Positions 2,819-40,728 of a stretch of 40,728 bases of DNA are shown here, in pieces. The first letter of the stretch is position 1, and every line of letters begins with the position of its first letter. The notes beneath the pieces are model-generated. The model worked only from the letters and a program-made list of their open reading frames with translations, ran no database searches and was not told the origin of the DNA. This stretch comes from a virus, in the IMG/VR virus record IMGVR_UViG_3300045977_000101, positions 1-40,728 of that record; one strand, given 5' to 3'. Position numbers and translations under genes: made by a program.

Positions 2819-5800
2819 TTACACACAGTTCTGCGAGTACAGCAGTCCCCACAGGTAATACAGATAGCAATTGGCACCAGCGTGATTCTTCACTGGTATA
2901 GCCACGCCATTATTGGCACCGACACCCCAATTAATGTAACCGAGTCGTGTGAGATCAGACGGGTCGAGCGCGATCACTCCGCCAGTCGCACCAACGAGAG
3001 GGATCGCAGGCAACGACAGATGGATGTTGGCAAACCTGTAAGACGGATGGCCGAGCCTCATGCGTCCATCGGTGTCAGGTCGAATGTACGAGTGCCACGA
3101 GTTCGTGACACCAGCAGCCTCGTACAACTTGAACACGATGCCCTCGTTCGTAAACGCCAGACCAGATGCACGCGTGCTGCCACTCTGTGACGTTGGCCCA
3201 TTGTTTACGATCTGGATGTGCGACGAATTGTCATCAAAGGATCCCATGCTGAGATCACCAATCGTCATCGATCCACCAGCACGAGTCGCCACGTGCGACA
3301 CACCACCAGACTCGGTCCACAACGTCAGCCATGGCTGCGTGCTGCCGAACGTGTCCACAATGCTGATCGCTCGTGACATATCCAATGACGTTCCACTGGC
3401 ACGCAACACCTGCAGACCATAGCTCGGTGTCAGCTGGTAAGTCGGCGACAGCACAGAACCAGTGAGCGTGATGTTTCCAGTGGTGCCGTTCATCGTCAGG
3501 TTGCACGCACCACCATAGATGCAGAACTCCAGACGATCTGAACGGAGCAACATGTTAGGCGTACCAGACACCGTGGCACCGAGGGCGATCACGCCACTAC
3601 CCATCCACAAACCACGATTGCCATCTGACTGGTAGATCGTGAAATCGTTATTGGCAGGATTGGCATGCATGCGCGTGGTGGTGTTTTGCATGATGCGAAA
3701 GCCGTTGCTTTCATCTGCGCTTACCCACATGCCAACTGGCTTGCCAGCTGCGAATCCATACGTCTCGGTTTTGTAGTCGTACAAGCCGATCAGATTGCCA
3801 CTCGCCCATCGAGGCTCTTGCTGATACCACTCGTTGCCAGAGGCGACCCATCCGACTACCGATGGCCCATTGATCGTGTTCGGTCGTTGAACCTGCAGAT
3901 AGTTCCAGTGCGCCTGCGCAGCGTCAGCACCGAGTTGATAGTCATAGATCGCGAGTTCACCAAAGTGCAATCCGTGTGAGTCACCAGCATTCGCCCATCC
4001 CACAATGGCTAGAGGCTGGCCAGTGCCTGTGGTATTCGCACCAGGTGCCTGACTCGGATGGTGATAGTCACGCTGAAAGATCGTGGTGGTGCCATCGTAA
4101 TAACCGGAGTATGTAGAACAGCCGTTGTAACTGTCCCATGCAAATATCAGGTATACCCATGTCTGATCAGGCACAGCACGACTCTGCCCACACACAGACT
4201 GCCAGCCACCAGTAGAGAGATTGGCGTAAACGTTATACGACGTTTTGCCAGCACCAGCACCCCATGCATACACCACGAAATTGGCCTCGACCGTTTCGTT
4301 GCCTGCCTGCCAGCGACGAATGACCGGCATGAAATCCTGTGCAGGCACACCAGTGTTGCCAGTGTGAATGATGAACTCGATTGTCCACGCGTAAGCAATG
4401 GATGTCGTTTCCAGTTCTTGCACACGCACTGGTGGCACGATCCAATCGTTTACGTCCGCACCAGTCGGTGTCGGTCCATACCATCCGCCGTAGATGTCGC
4501 CAGTGCGTGCACAGGCGTACCAGCCACAGCTACCAAAGTTCGTGCCGACACGTGCCACTGCTGATGTCTTTGGTCCGGTGTAGCCTCGTGGGCCAGCTGC
4601 AAGGTTCGGCGATGCTGCTGGTGGTGTCTCGTTAAACGTCCAGTACAGCACCGGCTTATCCGACAGCACAGCGTTACCGTACGAGAGCAGGCCACTTCCC
4701 TCGCTGAATATGTCGATCCATCGATCCATGCTCACGATGGCCGCACCAGCAGGCCACACGTTCGAGCCAGAGCCATCCTGGTTACGGTGCACAGTCACGG
4801 CATAGTCATCGTTATCGACACCGTTGCACTGCGATGGCAATGGGATCGCGCCAGTGCAATCGGCAATCGCACCACCAGACACTTTCACCACCTCATACTG
4901 TGGTTGATTCGTCGTGGCATTGAGGCCACGCATGATCAGAAGATCTGCGTAACGCGTGAACTTCGTTTTTGTGAAGATGACATCCCAATCGCCAGCCGTG
5001 CCTGATGTCGGCCTCGTGATCGTCGAGCCTCGGCCCACCTTTAAACTCGCCTCGGTATAGACCTGCGTCTCGTTGACAGCGAATGTCGAGGCTTTGAGTT
5101 CGCCGACGTTGAGCGTTGCGTAAGGCATCAGGTACGAACCGAGATTCGTATACAGCGCAGTGCGTGGCTCGACGTTGCGCACGCCCGGCCCGAACTGCGT
5201 AAAGTGCGACGACGCAATCGAGAACGCATCCGAACCAGACACACTAAGGTGCAGTGATGGGTAGATCGACGATCCTGACTTGTTAGCCACGATACGTGAG
5301 CCAGTACCATCCTGATACATCAACGCCACTGGTGCGTTCGCTGGATCGGCACCACCATACGCAGCGAAACCTGATACCTGGCTCGTGCCGTTCGGCATGG
5401 CTTGCACCACCGTGATGCCGTTCGCCACCGACGACACAAAGCCAGTGCGATTCGATTCACTGGCTGCACTGAAATCGGATCGAATGCGTCGGCCAGCTGC
5501 ACCACCGATCACCACGTCAGCATTTACGGTGGTGGTCGCATTGAACGTGGCACCAGCGTTGAACGTCCACGCACCAGCGATGGCCTCGGCCACGTCTCGT
5601 CGTGTGAACTGCGATGGCACATCACCAGTTGCCAGTGCTCGACGCACGAGATCTCCACTCGACGTGGTGAACACCACCGAGGTGCCACCAGTCGTCGCCA
5701 ATCCGTCGAGCCTCACCGTGCTGCCGACAGGCGTGGTCGGTTTCGGACCAACGGTCATCGAGGTGCCAACCACCTCCTGTGCATGAACGACAGCCACGCA

Positions 5801-14505: not shown

Positions 14506-15783
14506 TCAGGGACCGACAACAACTGGCACACCGAGGCTGGTCACTTCACCGAACGCACCAGGCGTGTACACGGCAAGTGCGAAACGTTCCTCGGCACGGA
14601 TCGCTGTCATGTTGCGGATGAAGTAATCCGCGTGCGTGTTCGCAGCCTCGACGGCGATGCCTCCCTTGCGGAAGATCTGCGCACCAAGTTGGAACGCACC
14701 AACGAGCGCAGTGGCTGCAGGCATCGCCGGAGTCACGACGACATTCAATCCCCACAGACGCTGCTGCAGTGGTGACGAGAACGGACCACCAGCGAGATAC
14801 TCGCCATTGGTCGCCTTGGTGAGCATGATCGTCTGCCAGTCGGCAGGATTCATCACCACTGCGTCAGGGAACATGTACGACGCACCAGCAATGGCACTGG
14901 CCTGACGCAGGATCGCATCCATGTTGTTTTCGGGATCGGTGCGCACGACATCCGGTGCGAGGCCGACACGGTTACGAATGCCGGTGATGTTGGGACCGAT
15001 GCCATCACCGTTGAGGATCTGATCTTCTTCTTCCTGCTGCACGAACACCACGAGACGGCCATCGATGTAACTGCGCAGCTGTGGCACGTCGTCGAGCATT
15101 TCATCCGTGACTGGCAACCACGTGGCGATCTTTTTTACGAGATCGGTTTTCTGCACGAAGATCAGCGTTGATTCGGGCTTGACTGCACCCTCGGCCACAG
15201 CAGCCGCACCGTTCACGCTGCCCTGTTCCTCCATGTAGATCACAGCGTTGCTGTCGGTGGTGCCACTCGCGATCAGATCGGCAATCACCAGACGCTGCAT
15301 CCGCACTGGCTGCAGGCCGAGATTCTGTGGCACGAGCAACGGACCACCACTGCCAGCACTGCTGTCGAGTGTGGTGGCCTGCATCGGCACCTCAAGATCG
15401 ATGGTGCCACTGGACCAGCCACGAGGCCGAGCCTTGCCACGAATGCCATCGCGATACACAGCCGACATCACCAGCTGCTGACCGAGCGACAGTGCACGCT
15501 GTGTCTGGAAACCAGCTGCACCACGATCAATCACAGCACGCTGTGTCTGTGCCTGCTGATCCTGAAAGGCCGACAACTGCGCTCGCATCTCATCGTCGCC
15601 AGTCAGTGCGTCGATCCGAGCCTTGATTGCTTTCGCTGCGTCCAGGTGCGACTGCACCTCGGCACGCTCGGCATCGGTAAGTTCTCGGTTCTCTGTCTCG
15701 GCTGCAGCCATGAACGTGCGTGCCTTGTTCAAGGCCTCATCACGTTCCGACGACAGCGTGTGTCGAATCGGTAGCATCTGCAT
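14506..15783 (-). CDS. Major capsid protein, HK97 fold with N-terminal scaffold
   Basis: 425 residues with a CAGGGAG ribosome binding site. The first ~95 residues are helical and charged (RDEALNKARTFMAAAETENRELTDAE), like the delta/scaffold domain that the prohead protease removes. The remainder carries HK97-type features: VKPESTLIF near the E-loop/P-domain start, ATWLPVTDEMLDDVPQLRSYID, QILNGDGIGPNITGI, MNPADWQTIML and RKGGIAVEAANTHADYFIRN. It lies just downstream of the S49 protease. The product forms the icosahedral shell. Confidence 0.96.
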   Translation of the reverse strand: MQMLPIRHTLSSERDEALNKARTFMAAAETENRELTDAERAEVQSHLDAAKAIKARIDALTGDDEMRAQLSAFQDQQAQTQRAVIDRGAAGFQTQRALSLGQQLVMSAVYRDGIRGKARPRGWSSGTIDLEVPMQATTLDSSAGSGGPLLVPQNLGLQPVRMQRLVIADLIASGTTDSNAVIYMEEQGSVNGAAAVAEGAVKPESTLIFVQKTDLVKKIATWLPVTDEMLDDVPQLRSYIDGRLVVFVQQEEEDQILNGDGIGPNITGIRNRVGLAPDVVRTDPENNMDAILRQASAIAGASYMFPDAVVMNPADWQTIMLTKATNGEYLAGGPFSSPLQQRLWGLNVVVTPAMPAATALVGAFQLGAQIFRKGGIAVEAANTHADYFIRNMTAIRAEERFALAVYTPGAFGEVTSLGVPVVVGP

Positions 15784-31213: not shown

Positions 31214-31285
31214 TCACGAATCCGATCCTGTGAATGTCGGCTGGCCACAACGCACCAGCACGAATAGAAACGCAGCGAGATCGGG

Positions 31286-31314
31286 AGAATGCGCCGAGCA
31301 CGATTGGCTGTCAA
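31286..31314 (-). promoter_or_regulatory. Leftward promoter candidate
   Basis: On the minus strand a perfect TTGACA (31314-31309) is followed after exactly 17 bases by CATTCT (31291-31286). CATTCT keeps the A2, T3 and T6 of the -10 consensus. It lies about 75 bases before the repressor start. Confidence 0.5.
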
Positions 31315-31446
31315 CGTGTCAGCAACTGGCCATACAATTTCGCCTCGTGCTGTCAGTGACCGACACGACGCGGATCACCTCGGAAAACATTGGCATTTCG
31401 CAACGATCAGCGCACACGTTGAACGCTTGCACGAGGTGGCAACACG

Positions 31447-31482
31447 ATGGATGGGCTTGCGTCGAGGATTGACTGGTGGTAG
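31447..31482 (+). CDS. Possible 11-residue leader peptide
   Basis: ATG follows GAGGTGGCAACACG, the same signal used by neighbouring genes, and encodes MDGLASRIDWW and a TAG stop. It lies 98 bases before the first rightward gene. Two tandem Trp codons just before the stop recall attenuator leaders, but nothing else supports that, and chance is possible. Confidence 0.25.
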   Translation: MDGLASRIDWW

Positions 31483-31579
31483 AAGCGAGGCACAACGCAC
31501 GAACACGCACGAACACGCAACGGATCACGCACCGTTGATCGTGAACGTGCACGAGGCCACGAACAGGAGAACGAGAACG

Positions 31580-32104
31580 ATGGGAACACTACAGGGATCG
31601 CTTACGCAGGCACTGCACCATCCGCCACCTGGTATGGAAGATCTCCAGCTGCCAGACAATCCACGGCTTGAGCCATTGCGACCAGTGCTGCGAGCGTTGC
31701 GCCTGAATCCCGATGGCCTGCTGCTCGTCGTCTGTCCTCGTGATCGCGAACTGGCCGACGAGGTGATCGATTCGGCACGCGTGGTGGTATGGGCCGATCC
31801 ACGAGATCGAATGCCAGCGAGCGTGGTGGCTGTCGTGTTCGTCGGTCTGCCCGGTGGCCGAGCCACGACACACGTACACGAGCAGGCACGCAGGCTCGGC
31901 GCACAGGTCTACCAGCAGACGATCACGCCACGCACGGTGCTGGACCTGTGCACCGAGGCTGGCTTGCTCACCACCTCGCACAATTCCGACACGACACGAC
32001 ACGACACGACACAACATGCCGACACACCGTGCACCACACCAGACACACACCGAGCAGCCGACAGCTGCACCACCACACGCAGCGAGAGCGAATCCGTACC
32101 TTGA
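31580..32104 (+). CDS. First rightward gene, unknown function
   Basis: 174 residues with AGGAG before the ATG. The folded-looking core (LRPVLRALRLNPDGLLLVVCPRDRELADEVIDSARVVVWADPRDRMPASVVAVVFVGLPGG ...) is alpha/beta-like and ends around residue 133. The last 40 residues are Thr/His/Asp low complexity, coming from a CGACA repeat and then 89 bases that overlap the next gene. Function unknown. The tail may be an out-of-frame extension of a gene that was once continuous with the next one. Confidence 0.65.
   Translation: MGTLQGSLTQALHHPPPGMEDLQLPDNPRLEPLRPVLRALRLNPDGLLLVVCPRDRELADEVIDSARVVVWADPRDRMPASVVAVVFVGLPGGRATTHVHEQARRLGAQVYQQTITPRTVLDLCTEAGLLTTSHNSDTTRHDTTQHADTPCTTPDTHRAADSCTTTRSESESVP
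31987..32011 (+). repeat. CGACA pentanucleotide repeat, five units
   Basis: Five exact CGACA units lie just ahead of the ATG of the following gene (32016) and inside the end of the first rightward gene. Since five is not a multiple of three, a change of copy number shifts the frame. One extra unit, or two fewer, puts both genes into one continuous frame. Confidence 0.85.
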
Positions 32105-32708
32105 TCCGAAAACAGGAAAGACACGCATCGGTGTGCTCTCTCAATTCATCCGCGATCAGGCCACGTTGTTTCCCGAGGCACCACACACGACGACACAGGA
32201 GATCGCACGGCTTACCGATCTCGCAGCCACGCTCGGCATCCCGACGACGAAGGGATCGATCTCCGAGAGCTACTACGCTCGGCGTCGTGCAAAGCGTGCA
32301 GAGGATGGCCAGCCACCATCCGCGCAGAGTGTGCGTACAGCTGGCAAACCACGTAAGCGACGAACAACGACCGACACCACAGAGCAGGCCACACCAGAGC
32401 AGCCAGAGGCCTCGACCAGGAGCACACCACCAGTGATCGTCGAGGCCACACCGACACCAGCTGCAACGCCAGACACACCACCACCAGCACCAGTCGATAC
32501 GCTGTCGCGAGACTTCGCAGCGATGCAAGCAATGCTAGAAGATGGGATCGCTGCGCTCACGTTGATCAAGGACACGCTTGCTGGCCTGCAGCCTGCAATT
32601 GCTGCCGTTTCTGCACAGTCGGCCGAAACTAGCCAGCTGCGTGAGAAACTAGCTAGGCTCGAAAGAGCATGGCAAACGGTATTCAACGAGAAAGAGGCAC
32701 ACGACTGA
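32016..32708 (+). CDS. Unknown protein with coiled-coil tail
   Basis: 230 residues from an ATG that lacks a ribosome binding site; the frame is open far upstream (to 31854). After a Pro/Ala/His-rich N-terminus comes NPYLDPKTGKTRIGVLSQFIRDQATLF, then EIARLTDLAATLGIPTTKGSISESYYARRRAKR, which could be a DNA-binding helix set, a Thr/Pro linker, and a C-terminal coiled coil (SQLREKLARLERAWQTVFNEKE). It may be translated by coupling with, or fusion to, the preceding gene. Confidence 0.65.
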   Translation: MPTHRAPHQTHTEQPTAAPPHAARANPYLDPKTGKTRIGVLSQFIRDQATLFPEAPHTTTQEIARLTDLAATLGIPTTKGSISESYYARRRAKRAEDGQPPSAQSVRTAGKPRKRRTTTDTTEQATPEQPEASTRSTPPVIVEATPTPAATPDTPPPAPVDTLSRDFAAMQAMLEDGIAALTLIKDTLAGLQPAIAAVSAQSAETSQLREKLARLERAWQTVFNEKEAHD

Positions 32709-33226
32709 TGAACGACACGCACACACCACCACCGACACCGAGCGAGGATGTGATCGCTCGTGTCACCGAGCAGTTACAGATCCAGCTGGCGTCAATTGAC
32801 AGCCAGCGTGCAGCACTCGACAGCCAGCACGCACGGATCACGCGAGCACTGCAGCAGCTGCGAGACGATGCCGAGTTCGCATCGGCATGGACACCACCGA
32901 CACCACCAGCAGCCGATGACAGTCCGAGCGTGATCGGTGCTGGCCTCGGTGACACGCTGGCGAAGATCAGCAAGGCAGCAGCCACCACGAACGGCAAGCG
33001 AGCAAAGGTGCGAGGTGCACAGGCACCACTGCGTGAGGTGCTGATCGATGTCGTGCGTGCCAGCCAGCCTGCGACAGCAACACAGATCACGCGCAACACG
33101 CTGGCCACTGGTTACGCGACGAACGCGAAGCACTTTACGCAAGTGGTCTACATGGCACTCAAGAAAGGTGCCGAGTTCAAGCGCAACGCTGATGGCACGT
33201 GGTCGCTGCGAAAGGCTGGACGCTGA
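32708..33226 (+). CDS. Coiled-coil and winged-helix-like DNA-binding protein
   Basis: 172 residues starting in a TGATG overlap, with AAAGAGG upstream. A coiled coil, EDVIARVTEQLQIQLASIDSQRAALDSQHARITRALQQL, is followed by a Pro/Ala linker and a C-terminal PLREVLIDVVRASQPATATQITRNTLATGYATNAKHFTQVVYMALKKGAEF. The latter has the winged-helix shape seen in phage and bacterial regulators, with wing RNADGTWSLRKAG. It overlaps the integrase start as TGATG and may regulate or assist it. Confidence 0.75.
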   Translation: MNDTHTPPPTPSEDVIARVTEQLQIQLASIDSQRAALDSQHARITRALQQLRDDAEFASAWTPPTPPAADDSPSVIGAGLGDTLAKISKAAATTNGKRAKVRGAQAPLREVLIDVVRASQPATATQITRNTLATGYATNAKHFTQVVYMALKKGAEFKRNADGTWSLRKAGR

Positions 33227-34332
33227 TGGCACGCAAGGGAAAGCGAGAACTTGCGTTTGCAGGCGTCAAGAACATCTACATGGACGGCACTGGTTACGAC
33301 ATCACGATGATGGTGCGTGGCCAGACAGACTCGCGACGATACAAGGCAGGCGTATCGCGCACGTTCCTGATCGCTGAGGCTGCAGCGATGCGCACGAGGC
33401 TGAACGCACAGGCCGACAAGCAAGAGGCACGCACTGGCAAAGACGGCACCATGCGCACCGACTGCAACGCGTTCCTCGCTGGTTGGAGTGGCAAGAACAA
33501 AGGACCGATCACCAACCAGCTGCATCACTGGTGTGTGGCACTCGGTGACACCACGCCACGCAAGCACGTCACCTCGCAGCGTATCCGTGAGGTGATCGCC
33601 GACTGGTTGCGTAAGCCACAGGCCAGCAACGACGGCAAGCCGTACGCACAGGAAACCGTGATCAAGTTGTTGCGCACGCTGCGTCAGGTGTGGCGCACGC
33701 TCGACGGCAAGGCCGCAGCCAATCCAGCCAACGACGTGGACACACCACCGACACCAAAGCCTGTCGCACGTGCACTGGATTTCGACGAGGCCGACCAGAT
33801 CATTTATTCCATGCGTCCCTCGTACACGCGAGCGTGCCTCAAGATGCAACGGCACCTCGGTGTGATGGCCATCGAACTCAAGCGACTGCACAAGCACGAG
33901 GTGAGATGGAAGCAAGGCACGATCAAGATCAGCCGACGACAGAAGGGCCATGGCTCACACGAGCGCACGTTGCCGTTCGGCCGAATCGATGCTGCTCGTG
34001 CTGCCGTCGAGGAATACGCGAGCTATGACAAGTGGGCAGTGAACGGCAAAGAGTTGACATGGGACACCGACAACTTACGCAAGGCACTGGTGGCACGAGC
34101 GAATGCGCTCGGCCTCGCACCGGGATGCCGTGCGTACGATCTGCGTCACACGTTCGCCACCGAGATGTTCAAGCGAAACGGAGGGAACATCAGATCGGTG
34201 CAAAAGTGGCTCGGCCACGAGAAAGTGGAAACGACGCAACGGTACATCCTCGGTGGTGATGACGATCAGTTGATCGCCGATGCCGATGCGGTGAACGAGT
34301 ACCACAAGGCACGAAAGGCCGAGGCTGCGTAG
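33226..34332 (+). CDS. int: Tyrosine recombinase/integrase with an atypical active site
   Basis: 368 residues from an ATG in a TGATG overlap. The N-terminal arm-binding/SAM-like region contains DCNAFLAGWSGKNK and REVIADWLRKPQASNDGKPYAQETVIKLLRTLRQVWRTL. The catalytic domain shows GHGSHERTLPFG with Lys240, YDLRHTFATEMF with Arg307 (Tyr for the usual His at 304), and WLGHEKVETTQRYI with His331 and nucleophile Tyr340. The first catalytic arginine box, normally TGLRxxEL, reads LGVMAIEL with Met214. The gene marks the phage as temperate by descent. Confidence 0.9.
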   Translation: MARKGKRELAFAGVKNIYMDGTGYDITMMVRGQTDSRRYKAGVSRTFLIAEAAAMRTRLNAQADKQEARTGKDGTMRTDCNAFLAGWSGKNKGPITNQLHHWCVALGDTTPRKHVTSQRIREVIADWLRKPQASNDGKPYAQETVIKLLRTLRQVWRTLDGKAAANPANDVDTPPTPKPVARALDFDEADQIIYSMRPSYTRACLKMQRHLGVMAIELKRLHKHEVRWKQGTIKISRRQKGHGSHERTLPFGRIDAARAAVEEYASYDKWAVNGKELTWDTDNLRKALVARANALGLAPGCRAYDLRHTFATEMFKRNGGNIRSVQKWLGHEKVETTQRYILGGDDDQLIADADAVNEYHKARKAEAA

Positions 34333-35689: not shown

Positions 35690-35817
35690 GCAACCGACGA
35701 CGACAGCACGACGATGAACGACACCACGCGATCACCGTGGCTGTGGTGCTGATGCTGGCAGTCTGGTGCGTGGTGCTGGTGTTCGTGTGGCTGGTGCGCA
35801 CCAGCGTGCAGCTGTGA
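35686..35817 (+). CDS. 43-residue single-pass membrane protein
   Basis: A short gene from a GTG in a GTGA overlap. The product has a basic/polar N-terminus (MSNRRRQHDDERHHAI) and a single hydrophobic helix, TVAVVLMLAVWCVVLVFVWLV, then RTSVQL. It ends the coupled string and precedes the large iteron-bearing gap. Role unknown. Confidence 0.6.
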   Translation: MSNRRRQHDDERHHAITVAVVLMLAVWCVVLVFVWLVRTSVQL

Positions 35818-35986
35818 GGCCAGCCACGCACAGGCCACCAGAGGCCACGCAGGCTGCAGGCTGGCTCACGAGTCGAGGCCAGCACCGTTCGTCGTTCCTG
35901 TGGCCTCTGTGTGCGTTCCTCGCAGCCTCGCAGGCCTTGCCAGCTGGCAGGCCTGCAGCTGCCAGATGGCCAGCCTCGGTGCCGTT

Positions 35987-36215
35987 TCTGGCACACAGTC
36001 TGGCACCATACAGATTCCCTAATGATTTAGGCCGATCAGGTTTCTGGCACAGCAAACGGTGCAGTGCCACGGAAATCGTAGAAATCCCTCAGTATTCCTC
36101 ACGTTTCTGCACGTTTCGGCCTGCTCTGGTCGGCTCTGGCACCACGCACAGACACGCAAGAAAACGCCTGAAAACGCACAGGCACGCCACCGTTTCTGGC
36201 ACCGCGTTCTGGCAC
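35987..36215. repeat. Six TCTGGCAC iterons
   Basis: Exact TCTGGCAC begins at 35987, 35999, 36043, 36135, 36195 and 36208, all on the plus strand. Three are preceded by T to make TTTCTGGCAC. Six copies of an 8-base word in 229 bases is far above chance. The stretch around 36010-36110 is also AT-richer than its surroundings, as origins often are. Confidence 0.8.
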
Positions 36216-36325
36216 CACTCGCCAGCCTGCAGCCTCGGCCAAGTGCGTACCAGGTGCGCACCACCTCGAAAATCCACACGGATTTGCGCCTGTTTCCTGC
36301 CATCAGCATTGCTGGCATTTCATGC

Positions 36326-36354
36326 TTGCATTGCTGGCAGGCACTTGACATGAT
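36326..36354 (+). promoter_or_regulatory. Weak rightward promoter candidate
   Basis: TTGCAT (36326-36331) and CATGAT (36349-36354) are separated by 17 bases, about 90 bases before the first accessory gene. A perfect TTGACA at 36345-36350 has no good -10 at 17 bases. Some promoter is expected here because transcription would otherwise have to cross the gap. Confidence 0.3.
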
Positions 36355-36445
36355 GTGTATTCGGCCGAAGGCCGGAACGGGAACGGCAACGGCACGAGGC
36401 CGAGGCCACCGACAACACGCACAACGAGAGAGAGCACGAGACACC

Positions 36446-36757: not shown

Positions 36758-36797
36758 GCCACGCACCACCACACACACGACAAGGACACCAGACACC

Positions 36798-37169
36798 ATG
36801 AACACGAACACGAACACCACGACGATCCACGGCACGAACCACGGCACGACGATTCGTGCACAGCAGTTCAGCGAGGCATACGCATTCGATGGCCTGATCG
36901 CACAGGCTGTGCAGGCTGGCGTACTCACCGACTGCTCGTATGGCAACGACATGATGCCGAGCGTGTGCCTGCCTCACGTGGCAGGCAGCGACGACGAGCG
37001 TGTGATGTTCGTGGACGCTGCCGATCCGAACGACAGCGAGGCCTGCGAGTTCGGCGCACGTGATCGCGAGTTCCGTTACCTCGTCGTCGAGTCGTACGAA
37101 ACCATGCGCACGCTGTACGAGGGAAACGACGAGGCCGAGGCAGTGCGCGTGCTCACCGAGATGCCGTAA
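36798..37169 (+). CDS. Small acidic accessory protein
   Basis: 123 residues. The ATG sits in the repeated leader AAGGACACCAGACACCATG. The N-terminus MNTNTNTTTIHG resembles that of the previous gene. The remainder is acidic and looks folded, with ERVMFVDAADPNDSEACEFGARDREFRYLVVESYETM. Function unknown. Confidence 0.75.
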   Translation: MNTNTNTTTIHGTNHGTTIRAQQFSEAYAFDGLIAQAVQAGVLTDCSYGNDMMPSVCLPHVAGSDDERVMFVDAADPNDSEACEFGARDREFRYLVVESYETMRTLYEGNDEAEAVRVLTEMP

Positions 37170-37219
37170 GCGTTCACCGACAACCGACAACACGCACACA
37201 GACAAGGACACCAGACACC

Positions 37220-37468
37220 ATGCAAACCATCACCACCAAGTTCCTCGGAGCAACCGACACCAAGGGATCGCGCATCTCTGCACGCACCACAGCTGGCCAC
37301 GTGATCGTGGTGCCATATCCACACGAGGCCTCGACTGGCACCGAGGCTCACTCTCACGCAGCACTGGCACTCGCTCGTCGGCTCAACTGGTCAGGCACGC
37401 TGGCTGGTGGCTCACTCGACGCAAAGCGATTCGTGTTCGTGTTCACACACGACACGTTCAGCATCTGA
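37220..37468 (+). CDS. Conserved small phage protein
   Basis: 82 residues with the same AAGGACACCAGACACC leader. MQTITTKFLGATDTKGSRISARTTAGHVIVVPYPHEASTGTEAHSHAALALARRL resembles a small protein found in many phages and plasmids (TKxLG.TdxxGsRI pattern). Function unknown; it often lies in accessory blocks. Confidence 0.8.
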   Translation: MQTITTKFLGATDTKGSRISARTTAGHVIVVPYPHEASTGTEAHSHAALALARRLNWSGTLAGGSLDAKRFVFVFTHDTFSI

Positions 37469-38922: not shown

Positions 38923-40644
38923 TCACACGAGTCGGCCACGCACGAGCAGACCAGTGCGACCAGGTGCACCACCATTGCTGCGCACCATCTCGATACTCAG
39001 TTCGTTGCCGACGCTGAAATGCCGACGAGGCATCAGCACGGTACCGTTGAACTCGATCACCTCGCACTCACAGGCACGCGTGCAGATGATCGAGTGCCAG
39101 CCTTGATCGCCATACAGCACACCGACCATTCGACCATCGCTGGCGACTCGGTGATCGAATCGCGTGCCGTTGCCTGTGTTCGGCTTGAACCAGCGATGCT
39201 GCGATTGCGTGTCGCCAAAGTGGAACGCACGAGGCCACGACTGCAGATCGCGTGGCAGCAATCCGACGACACGTGCCACCTCCCGGAATCCCTGCCAGCA
39301 CGTGAGCGATTCGACCGTGCTCAACTTCACGCCATCGGAGCAAAAGAAATTGAATCCCTGATCACACAGCAACGACTGTGCAGCCAGTGCGCACAGGTGC
39401 ATCGCATCAACGTCTCGTCCCTCGTAACAGTGGCGTGCCTTTACGCTCACCTCGTCGCCTGGTCCAGTCGGCTCGTCCTGATATCCGAGCGGACACGGTG
39501 GCTCACCTTCCCACATGACAGAGAAGATGTGCCTTACGCGATCATGATCCTCACCGTCTCGGTATCCGTGAATGGCGTAGTAGTCGCCATCGCACCAGTT
39601 CGCGATGTCGTTCTTTTCCTCGGTCGGTGGTGCCGTGGTGGTGATCGGCACGTCAGGACATGCCGACTTGAACGCATCGATGAACGCACACAGCGTGGTG
39701 ATGTCGTCGGCACCAGTCTGCCAAGCCTCGTTGCCTGCGATCACGAGTGCAGCTGTGTCGCGATGCCGCAAACGGTGGCCGAGCGTGCGTGCGAACTCGT
39801 CGTGTGACATGCCACGCAACGCGTAATCACCAGTGCAGTAAATGCCACGCATCCCGAACGAGTCGAGCAGATCACCAAACCGATCCAGCTGGTTCCAATA
39901 GTCCGGTGTGATCTCTGGTCCGATCTCGCGACCACTCCAGTAATCGCCACCGAGCGATCCGAGGTTCAGCCAGAACTGCACGAGCGCATATCCGGCATCG
40001 CTGCAGGCACGCACGGCATCGGTCGCACGAGCGACATCACGTGTGTAGACGCTGAACAGATCGCCGAGGTGGATCCCGATTGGCAACACAGGACCAACGT
40101 CGTCGGCATAACCGTCTGACGTGCAACGCAGCTGGCCTGTGATCCGAGGTGCCACATGCTGTGCACGCAGTGGAGGATCAGCCGTAAAGGTTTCGTATCC
40201 GCCTGGTACGGTTGTCGGCGCATCGTTAGCGTAAGGCTGATCTAACGCAACACGGCCATCGCCATATGCCTTGATGAACCAGCCTGGACGTGCGACCGAT
40301 TCAAAGGCGACACGCTGGCCATCGCCATCGAGATCGTGCAGCCTGAACTTTTCCCATGCACCGGCACTGTCGCGATTGAACACGACGATGCCTGCACAGC
40401 CAGCCTCGGCATCGGCCTCGGCATTTTCACAGCAGGCGAATCGGCCACCGTGATCGACCGAGACGAGTGCACACACACCAGCCTCGTCGGTCGCTTGTAC
40501 GTCGATGCTTTCCCATGCACCAGCGTCATCACGCGTGGCTGTCATCAGGCCAGACGGTCGCTCGTCGATTGACGTGCCACCGAAACCACCACCATCCTCT
40601 GCGCTTACGAACTTGCCGTGATCCGATCTGAGCGTGACGATCAT
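38923..40644 (-). CDS. Fascin-like beta-trefoil/glycoside hydrolase fusion
   Basis: 573 residues with GAGAGG before the ATG. Residues 1-155 contain fascin/actin-crosslinker-like trefoil units (VTLRSDHGKFVSAEDGGG, DAGAWESI, AGAWEKFRL, GWFIKAYGDGRVAL). Residues about 185-500 look like a clan GH-A TIM barrel: IGIHLGDLF, IAGNEAW with probable acid/base Glu306, YYAIHGYRD with His359, and MWEGEP with a probable nucleophile Glu379 or 381. A C-terminal beta domain follows. It is a likely virion-associated enzyme that binds and cuts host polysaccharide. The exact family and substrate are not known. The first 16 codons lie in the terminal repeat. Confidence 0.8.
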   Translation of the reverse strand: MIVTLRSDHGKFVSAEDGGGFGGTSIDERPSGLMTATRDDAGAWESIDVQATDEAGVCALVSVDHGGRFACCENAEADAEAGCAGIVVFNRDSAGAWEKFRLHDLDGDGQRVAFESVARPGWFIKAYGDGRVALDQPYANDAPTTVPGGYETFTADPPLRAQHVAPRITGQLRCTSDGYADDVGPVLPIGIHLGDLFSVYTRDVARATDAVRACSDAGYALVQFWLNLGSLGGDYWSGREIGPEITPDYWNQLDRFGDLLDSFGMRGIYCTGDYALRGMSHDEFARTLGHRLRHRDTAALVIAGNEAWQTGADDITTLCAFIDAFKSACPDVPITTTAPPTEEKNDIANWCDGDYYAIHGYRDGEDHDRVRHIFSVMWEGEPPCPLGYQDEPTGPGDEVSVKARHCYEGRDVDAMHLCALAAQSLLCDQGFNFFCSDGVKLSTVESLTCWQGFREVARVVGLLPRDLQSWPRAFHFGDTQSQHRWFKPNTGNGTRFDHRVASDGRMVGVLYGDQGWHSIICTRACECEVIEFNGTVLMPRRHFSVGNELSIEMVRSNGGAPGRTGLLVRGRLV

Positions 40645-40728
40645 CGTGTGCCTCTCTTTCGTGTGTTGTGCGCAGCACGAGCAAGGGACACAGCGAGCGA
40701 CGAACGACGAACGAACCAGCGTGCAGCT
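40597..40728. repeat. Terminal direct repeat, right copy
   Basis: Same 132 bases as 1-132 with one difference (G at 40723 against T at 127). It includes the start of the fascin/hydrolase gene and its ribosome binding site. Confidence 0.95.

Follow-up and report, generated by a model that had tools for sequence, protein, structure and literature searches.

A CGACA tandem repeat at the junction of two overlapping frames, probably the halves of one gene, in a temperate phage

ORF1 and ORF2, the first two rightward reading frames of this phage genome, are probably the halves of one ancestral gene that was frameshifted at a CGACA tract, where the number of repeat units sets the reading frame. The window, i.e. 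the whole stretch of DNA analysed, is an IMG/VR record of 40,728 nt. ORF1 (31580-32104, + strand, 174 aa) has an ATG start with an AGGAG site. ORF2 as called (32016-32708, + strand, 230 aa) starts from an ATG at 32016 with no Shine-Dalgarno (SD) sequence. The two frames differ and overlap by 89 nt; no other same-strand overlap in the genome exceeds 59 nt.

The repeat tract and its reading-frame arithmetic

An earlier sequence-only reading of this DNA had placed five CGACA units where ORF1 and ORF2 overlap in different frames. The units were found at 31987-32011 (+ strand), perfect and in tandem, and no second site with five perfect tandem pentamers exists in the 40,728-nt window. They are followed by an imperfect sixth unit, CAACA (32012-32016, + strand), and the TRF row for 31987-32016 gives 6.0 copies with a 96% match. 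The ORF2 ATG begins with the last A of the CAACA unit. Simulation never produced a five-fold tandem pentamer, whether in 600 genomes of 40.7 kb (Markov order 2, 3 and 5), in 900 sequences modelled on the rightward region (orders 1-3) or in 40,000 stretches of 180 nt with local composition. The tract is far beyond chance, and the null models did not reproduce it.

The copy number determines how the two frames are joined. With three or six copies, ORF1 and ORF2 form one fused frame (372 or 377 aa), with five or eight they are split, and with four or seven ORF1 continues in the third frame up to 32436. This arithmetic bears out the earlier statement that one unit more, or two fewer, joins the two frames; the third phase had been overlooked. 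The stops that ORF1 can reach across the repeat phases lie at 32104, 32436 and 32708, none of them near the end of the predicted ORF1 domain.

It had also been pointed out that the ORF2 frame is open back to 31854. The frame is indeed open, in fact as far as a stop at 31764, but this openness carries no weight as evidence since only 14.5% of the + strand is T. The third frame is likewise open, from 31789 to 32436, and off-frame open stretches of 285-437 nt are common among the other rightward genes.

Coding character, start signals and predicted architecture

Codon statistics were trained on genes away from the ORF1/ORF2 junction, and the change-point was determined by codon log-likelihood. 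Coding character was seen to leave the ORF1 frame for that of ORF2 at 31997 (95% interval 31970-32063, + strand), a position that falls on the CGACA tract and was found without reference to the repeat. By post hoc arithmetic, the genome's single perfect 5x5 tandem would lie inside this interval of about 94 nt in about 0.3% of cases by chance. The log-likelihood of the ORF1 frame was +28.4 before the repeat and -8.5 over 32016-32104, and the ORF1 tail 3' of the repeat looks non-coding. The ORF2 frame gave -54.3 before the repeat and +43.0 from 32133 on, being neutral at first beyond the repeat and then strongly positive. The linker at 31985-32015 is weakly coding in every frame (-2.5, -2.8 and -3.0), so that a gene boundary inside it is conceivable. 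Coding character thus shifts frame at one point, and the second part is devoid of start signals.

No SD was present at any of the ORF2 start candidates checked (31854, 32016 and 32133), in agreement with the earlier observation that the ORF2 ATG has no ribosome binding site. An SD of at least 3 bases was found at 55 of the 57 called starts, against 33% of internal in-frame start codons, a contrast that is somewhat inflated because the gene caller favours starts with SDs. For an SD of at least 4 bases, the figures were 46/57 and 9%, respectively. The region of ATG 32016 is A/C-rich and open, with a mean unpaired value of 0.71 (range of the other starts, 0.38-0.80).

Protein models were built from single sequences and are of low confidence, with mean pLDDT values of 47 for ORF1 and 54 for ORF2. 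The ORF1 model shows an alpha/beta domain up to about residue 126 and a disordered tail from the repeat onward, while that of ORF2 consists of a three-helix segment, a disordered linker and a long coiled coil. The CGACA tract is therefore predicted to lie in a disordered stretch between the alpha/beta part and the helical part, where a change in length would be tolerated. An assignment of ORF1 as a SLOG/DUF2493-like Rossmann domain was considered; it had no profile support and is not claimed.

Genome setting and related records

The ends of the window overlap by 132 nt (1-132 and 40597-40728) with one mismatch, at base 127. On the basis of this overlap the record, though listed as linear, probably represents the whole genome in circularised form, about 40,596 bp long. 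The terminal mismatch may reflect variation within the population at the break point. The leftward genes include TerL, portal and tape measure, and the rightward genes begin with ORF1, ORF2, a 172-aa protein and a tyrosine integrase. The 172-aa gene (ORF3; 32708-33226, + strand) has weak coiled-coil matches and is stop/start-coupled to ORF2 (TGATG), and the integrase gene (33226-34332, + strand; Pfam PF00589, E 4e-17; PHROG integrase, E 3e-29) is coupled in the same way; both downstream junctions of the operon are tight TGATG couplings with SDs. The integrase, two genes downstream, supports the earlier description of a temperate phage. Known phages are only remotely related, the best TerL matches being about 40%.

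Several further features of the genome were observed. Between the leftward and the rightward genes, the divergent intergenic region at 31214-31579 is a candidate for the operator region of a lysogeny switch; it contains tandem GCACGAACAC-type repeats at 31495-31532 as well as a direct repeat of 32 nt (75%) at 31246/31491. A near-identical leader, GACAAGGACACCAGACACCATG, stands before two genes at 36778-36800 and 37200-37222, which suggests a duplicated translation-start element. In a genome otherwise tightly packed, 756 nt between predicted rightward genes (35690-36445) are without a called gene. At the left end, a 54-nt repeat, a multiple of the triplet, occurs three times (1039-1196) inside a predicted leftward gene (780-1460).

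Searches with portal and TerL yielded near-identical fragments and 36 distant relatives. One fragment (L002, IMGVR_UViG_3300045931_000101) covers only 22322-16692 of the window and is identical to it at 5631 of 5631 bases. The other (L006/L044, the latter also G003; IMGVR_UViG_3300045978_000156) covers only 18015-3444 and is identical at 14,571 of 14,572 bases (99.993%). Taken together, L002 and L044 differ from the window at one site, with no indels. The same phage thus occurs as fragments in two other metagenomes, 3300045931 and 3300045978.

No homologue of ORF1 or ORF2 was found in the viral, phage and plasmid collections, and for ORF1 none in the genome collection (GTDB) either. Searches with ORF3 and the integrase (IMG/VR, phages, plasmids, GTDB genomes) gave nothing useful. 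When IMG/VR was scanned for the repeat pattern with a variable gap, and for an ORF1 27-mer, no further record matched. ORF1, ORF2 and ORF3 were undetectable in the 21 related records searched; in one of these relatives (L015/G010) a distant integrase is present, and no comparable gene pair was recognised upstream of it.

Explanations for the split and their significance

The one-gene explanation is favoured by the position of the change-point on the tract, the size of the overlap, the missing ORF2 SD, the tight downstream couplings, the lack of an ORF1 stop near the domain end and the location of the tract in predicted disorder. The ancestral gene would have headed the rightward operon to which the integrase gene belongs. 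Its product, of about 375 residues, would have begun with an alpha/beta domain, followed by a Thr/Pro/His-rich linker that harbours the CGACA tract; next would have come a small helical domain, joined by a second linker to a coiled coil at the C-terminus. The frameshift was probably caused by slipped-strand mispairing in the tract, whose five copies are one fewer than the in-frame six and two more than the in-frame three. At this copy number, ribosomes would leave the frame of the gene at the repeat and terminate at 32104. Against one gene, the searches returned no homologue of either half, hence no fused relative, the linker is weakly coding in every frame, and the open, A/C-rich region of ATG 32016 could support SD-independent initiation. 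A plain frameshift allele at the tract, given somewhat under even chances, is no less probable than a copy-number switch. The choice offered by the sequence-only reading, a contingency locus or an assembly error, left out both this ordinary frameshift allele and two genes with SD-independent initiation.

The latter is the main rival, although we regard it as rather unlikely. ORF1, disordered in its tail, would end normally at 32104, and ORF2 would start inside or just after it, from ATG 32016 or GTG 32133, by SD-independent or reinitiating translation, the repeat being incidental or an unstructured A/C-rich leader. Both frames are open and coding in character over their main parts, overlaps between phage genes are common and the structure around ATG 32016 is weak. 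However, the overlap would be the genome maximum, every ORF2 start would be without an SD in a phage in which nearly all starts have one, the codons of the ORF1 tail are anti-coding where the other frame is neutral to positive, and the openness at ATG 32016 lies within the range of the other starts. Phase variation, in contrast, is a special case of the split-gene explanation and not an alternative to its first step. It would require that the copy number changes at a high rate and that the tract is kept for switching among fused, split and third-frame run-on forms, which we consider distinctly unlikely. The tract is intragenic, its unit is not a triplet and its five perfect units stand exactly at the phasome-survey cut-off of at least five (PMC5953494, PMC6321876); repeat-driven fusing and splitting is also established for NgoAV hsdS1/hsdS2 (PMC9577141). 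Against it, five copies are the bottom of the range, the ORF1 and ORF2 products are not surface proteins, unlike those of most contingency loci, and one allele is known, as the two near-identical records do not cover the locus.

The remaining explanations are of low probability. An assembly or sequencing error within one intact gene is very unlikely. The locus is covered by one assembled sequence only, and a metagenomic contig is a consensus. However, the single mismatch of L044 sits at base 127 from its end, as does the terminal mismatch of the window, which suggests short-read de Bruijn assembly with k of about 127. The 30-nt tract is far shorter than this apparent k and well inside such k-mers, and elsewhere the independent records agree with the window over all 5631 bases in one case and over all but one of 14,572 in the other. 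Of the earlier proposal of an assembly error in a single gene, the single interrupted coding unit is retained, given the change-point and the missing SD, and the assembly error is not. It is still less probable that ribosomes make the fused protein from the five-copy sequence by a programmed frameshift (+1 or -2) at the repeat. The shift from ORF1 to ORF2 is +1 (or -2), and a fused product could arise in this way with no change in the DNA; yet there is no homopolymer of at least 3 between 31853 and 32104, no XXXYYYZ heptamer in 31766-32099, and the common -1 shift would lead into the wrong frame. A programmed -1 site was rejected as a candidate, the slippery heptamer being absent from the overlap and the geometry being +1/-2. 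The lowest probability is given to the idea that a DNA-binding protein recognises the tandem as an iteron or operator, its position in the frame being a by-product. Short tandem repeats can serve as operators, and ORF2 and the next gene encode helical or coiled-coil proteins in a lysogeny-side operon, but the array stands alone within a coding region, and CGACACGACA has no second occurrence in the genome, not even in the divergent intergenic region (31214-31579).

The Neisseria opa repeat unit, CTCTT, forms a pentanucleotide contingency locus. In phasome surveys, pentanucleotide tracts are counted from five units (PMC5953494, PMC6321876), and the authors of PhasomeIt note that the cut-offs take in tracts with a mutability possibly below 1e-5 (PMC6321876). 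The present tract resembles such loci in being a tandem unit in a reading frame, in which each gain or loss shifts the frame, with copies at the cut-off of five (PMC5953494, PMC6321876). It differs from them in that their documented alleles are many and their on/off switching mostly concerns surface proteins or methyltransferases, whereas here one allele is known and the tract lies in a mid-gene linker. A closer likeness in layout is NgoAV hsdS1/hsdS2 of Neisseria gonorrhoeae, a phase-variable type I R-M specificity gene whose two adjacent ORFs are separate or joined into one longer protein depending on a repeat at the end of the first (PMC9577141). There the repeat is poly-G, the gene belongs to a bacterial restriction-modification system, and both variation and function have been demonstrated, whereas the CGACA repeat is a pentanucleotide in a phage gene with one known allele. 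The mechanism proposed here would thus be of a known kind, simple-sequence-repeat fusing and splitting, as in NgoAV hsdS.

It is improbable that the phage carries a true contingency locus, in which CGACA slippage would toggle the leading protein of the integrase operon from a fused form to split forms and back, phage progeny thereby making a heritable, stochastic choice as to lysogeny or integration. No evident precedent for simple-sequence-repeat bet-hedging in phage genomes was met in small literature searches, far from exhaustive. The case would be notable only if the tract proves variable. If it is invariant, the locus would be a clean example of a repeat-length frameshift that makes one gene resemble two overlapping genes in metagenomic phage annotation. 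If it varies, the phage would use simple-sequence-repeat bet-hedging, familiar from bacterial surface genes, within its lysogeny operon.
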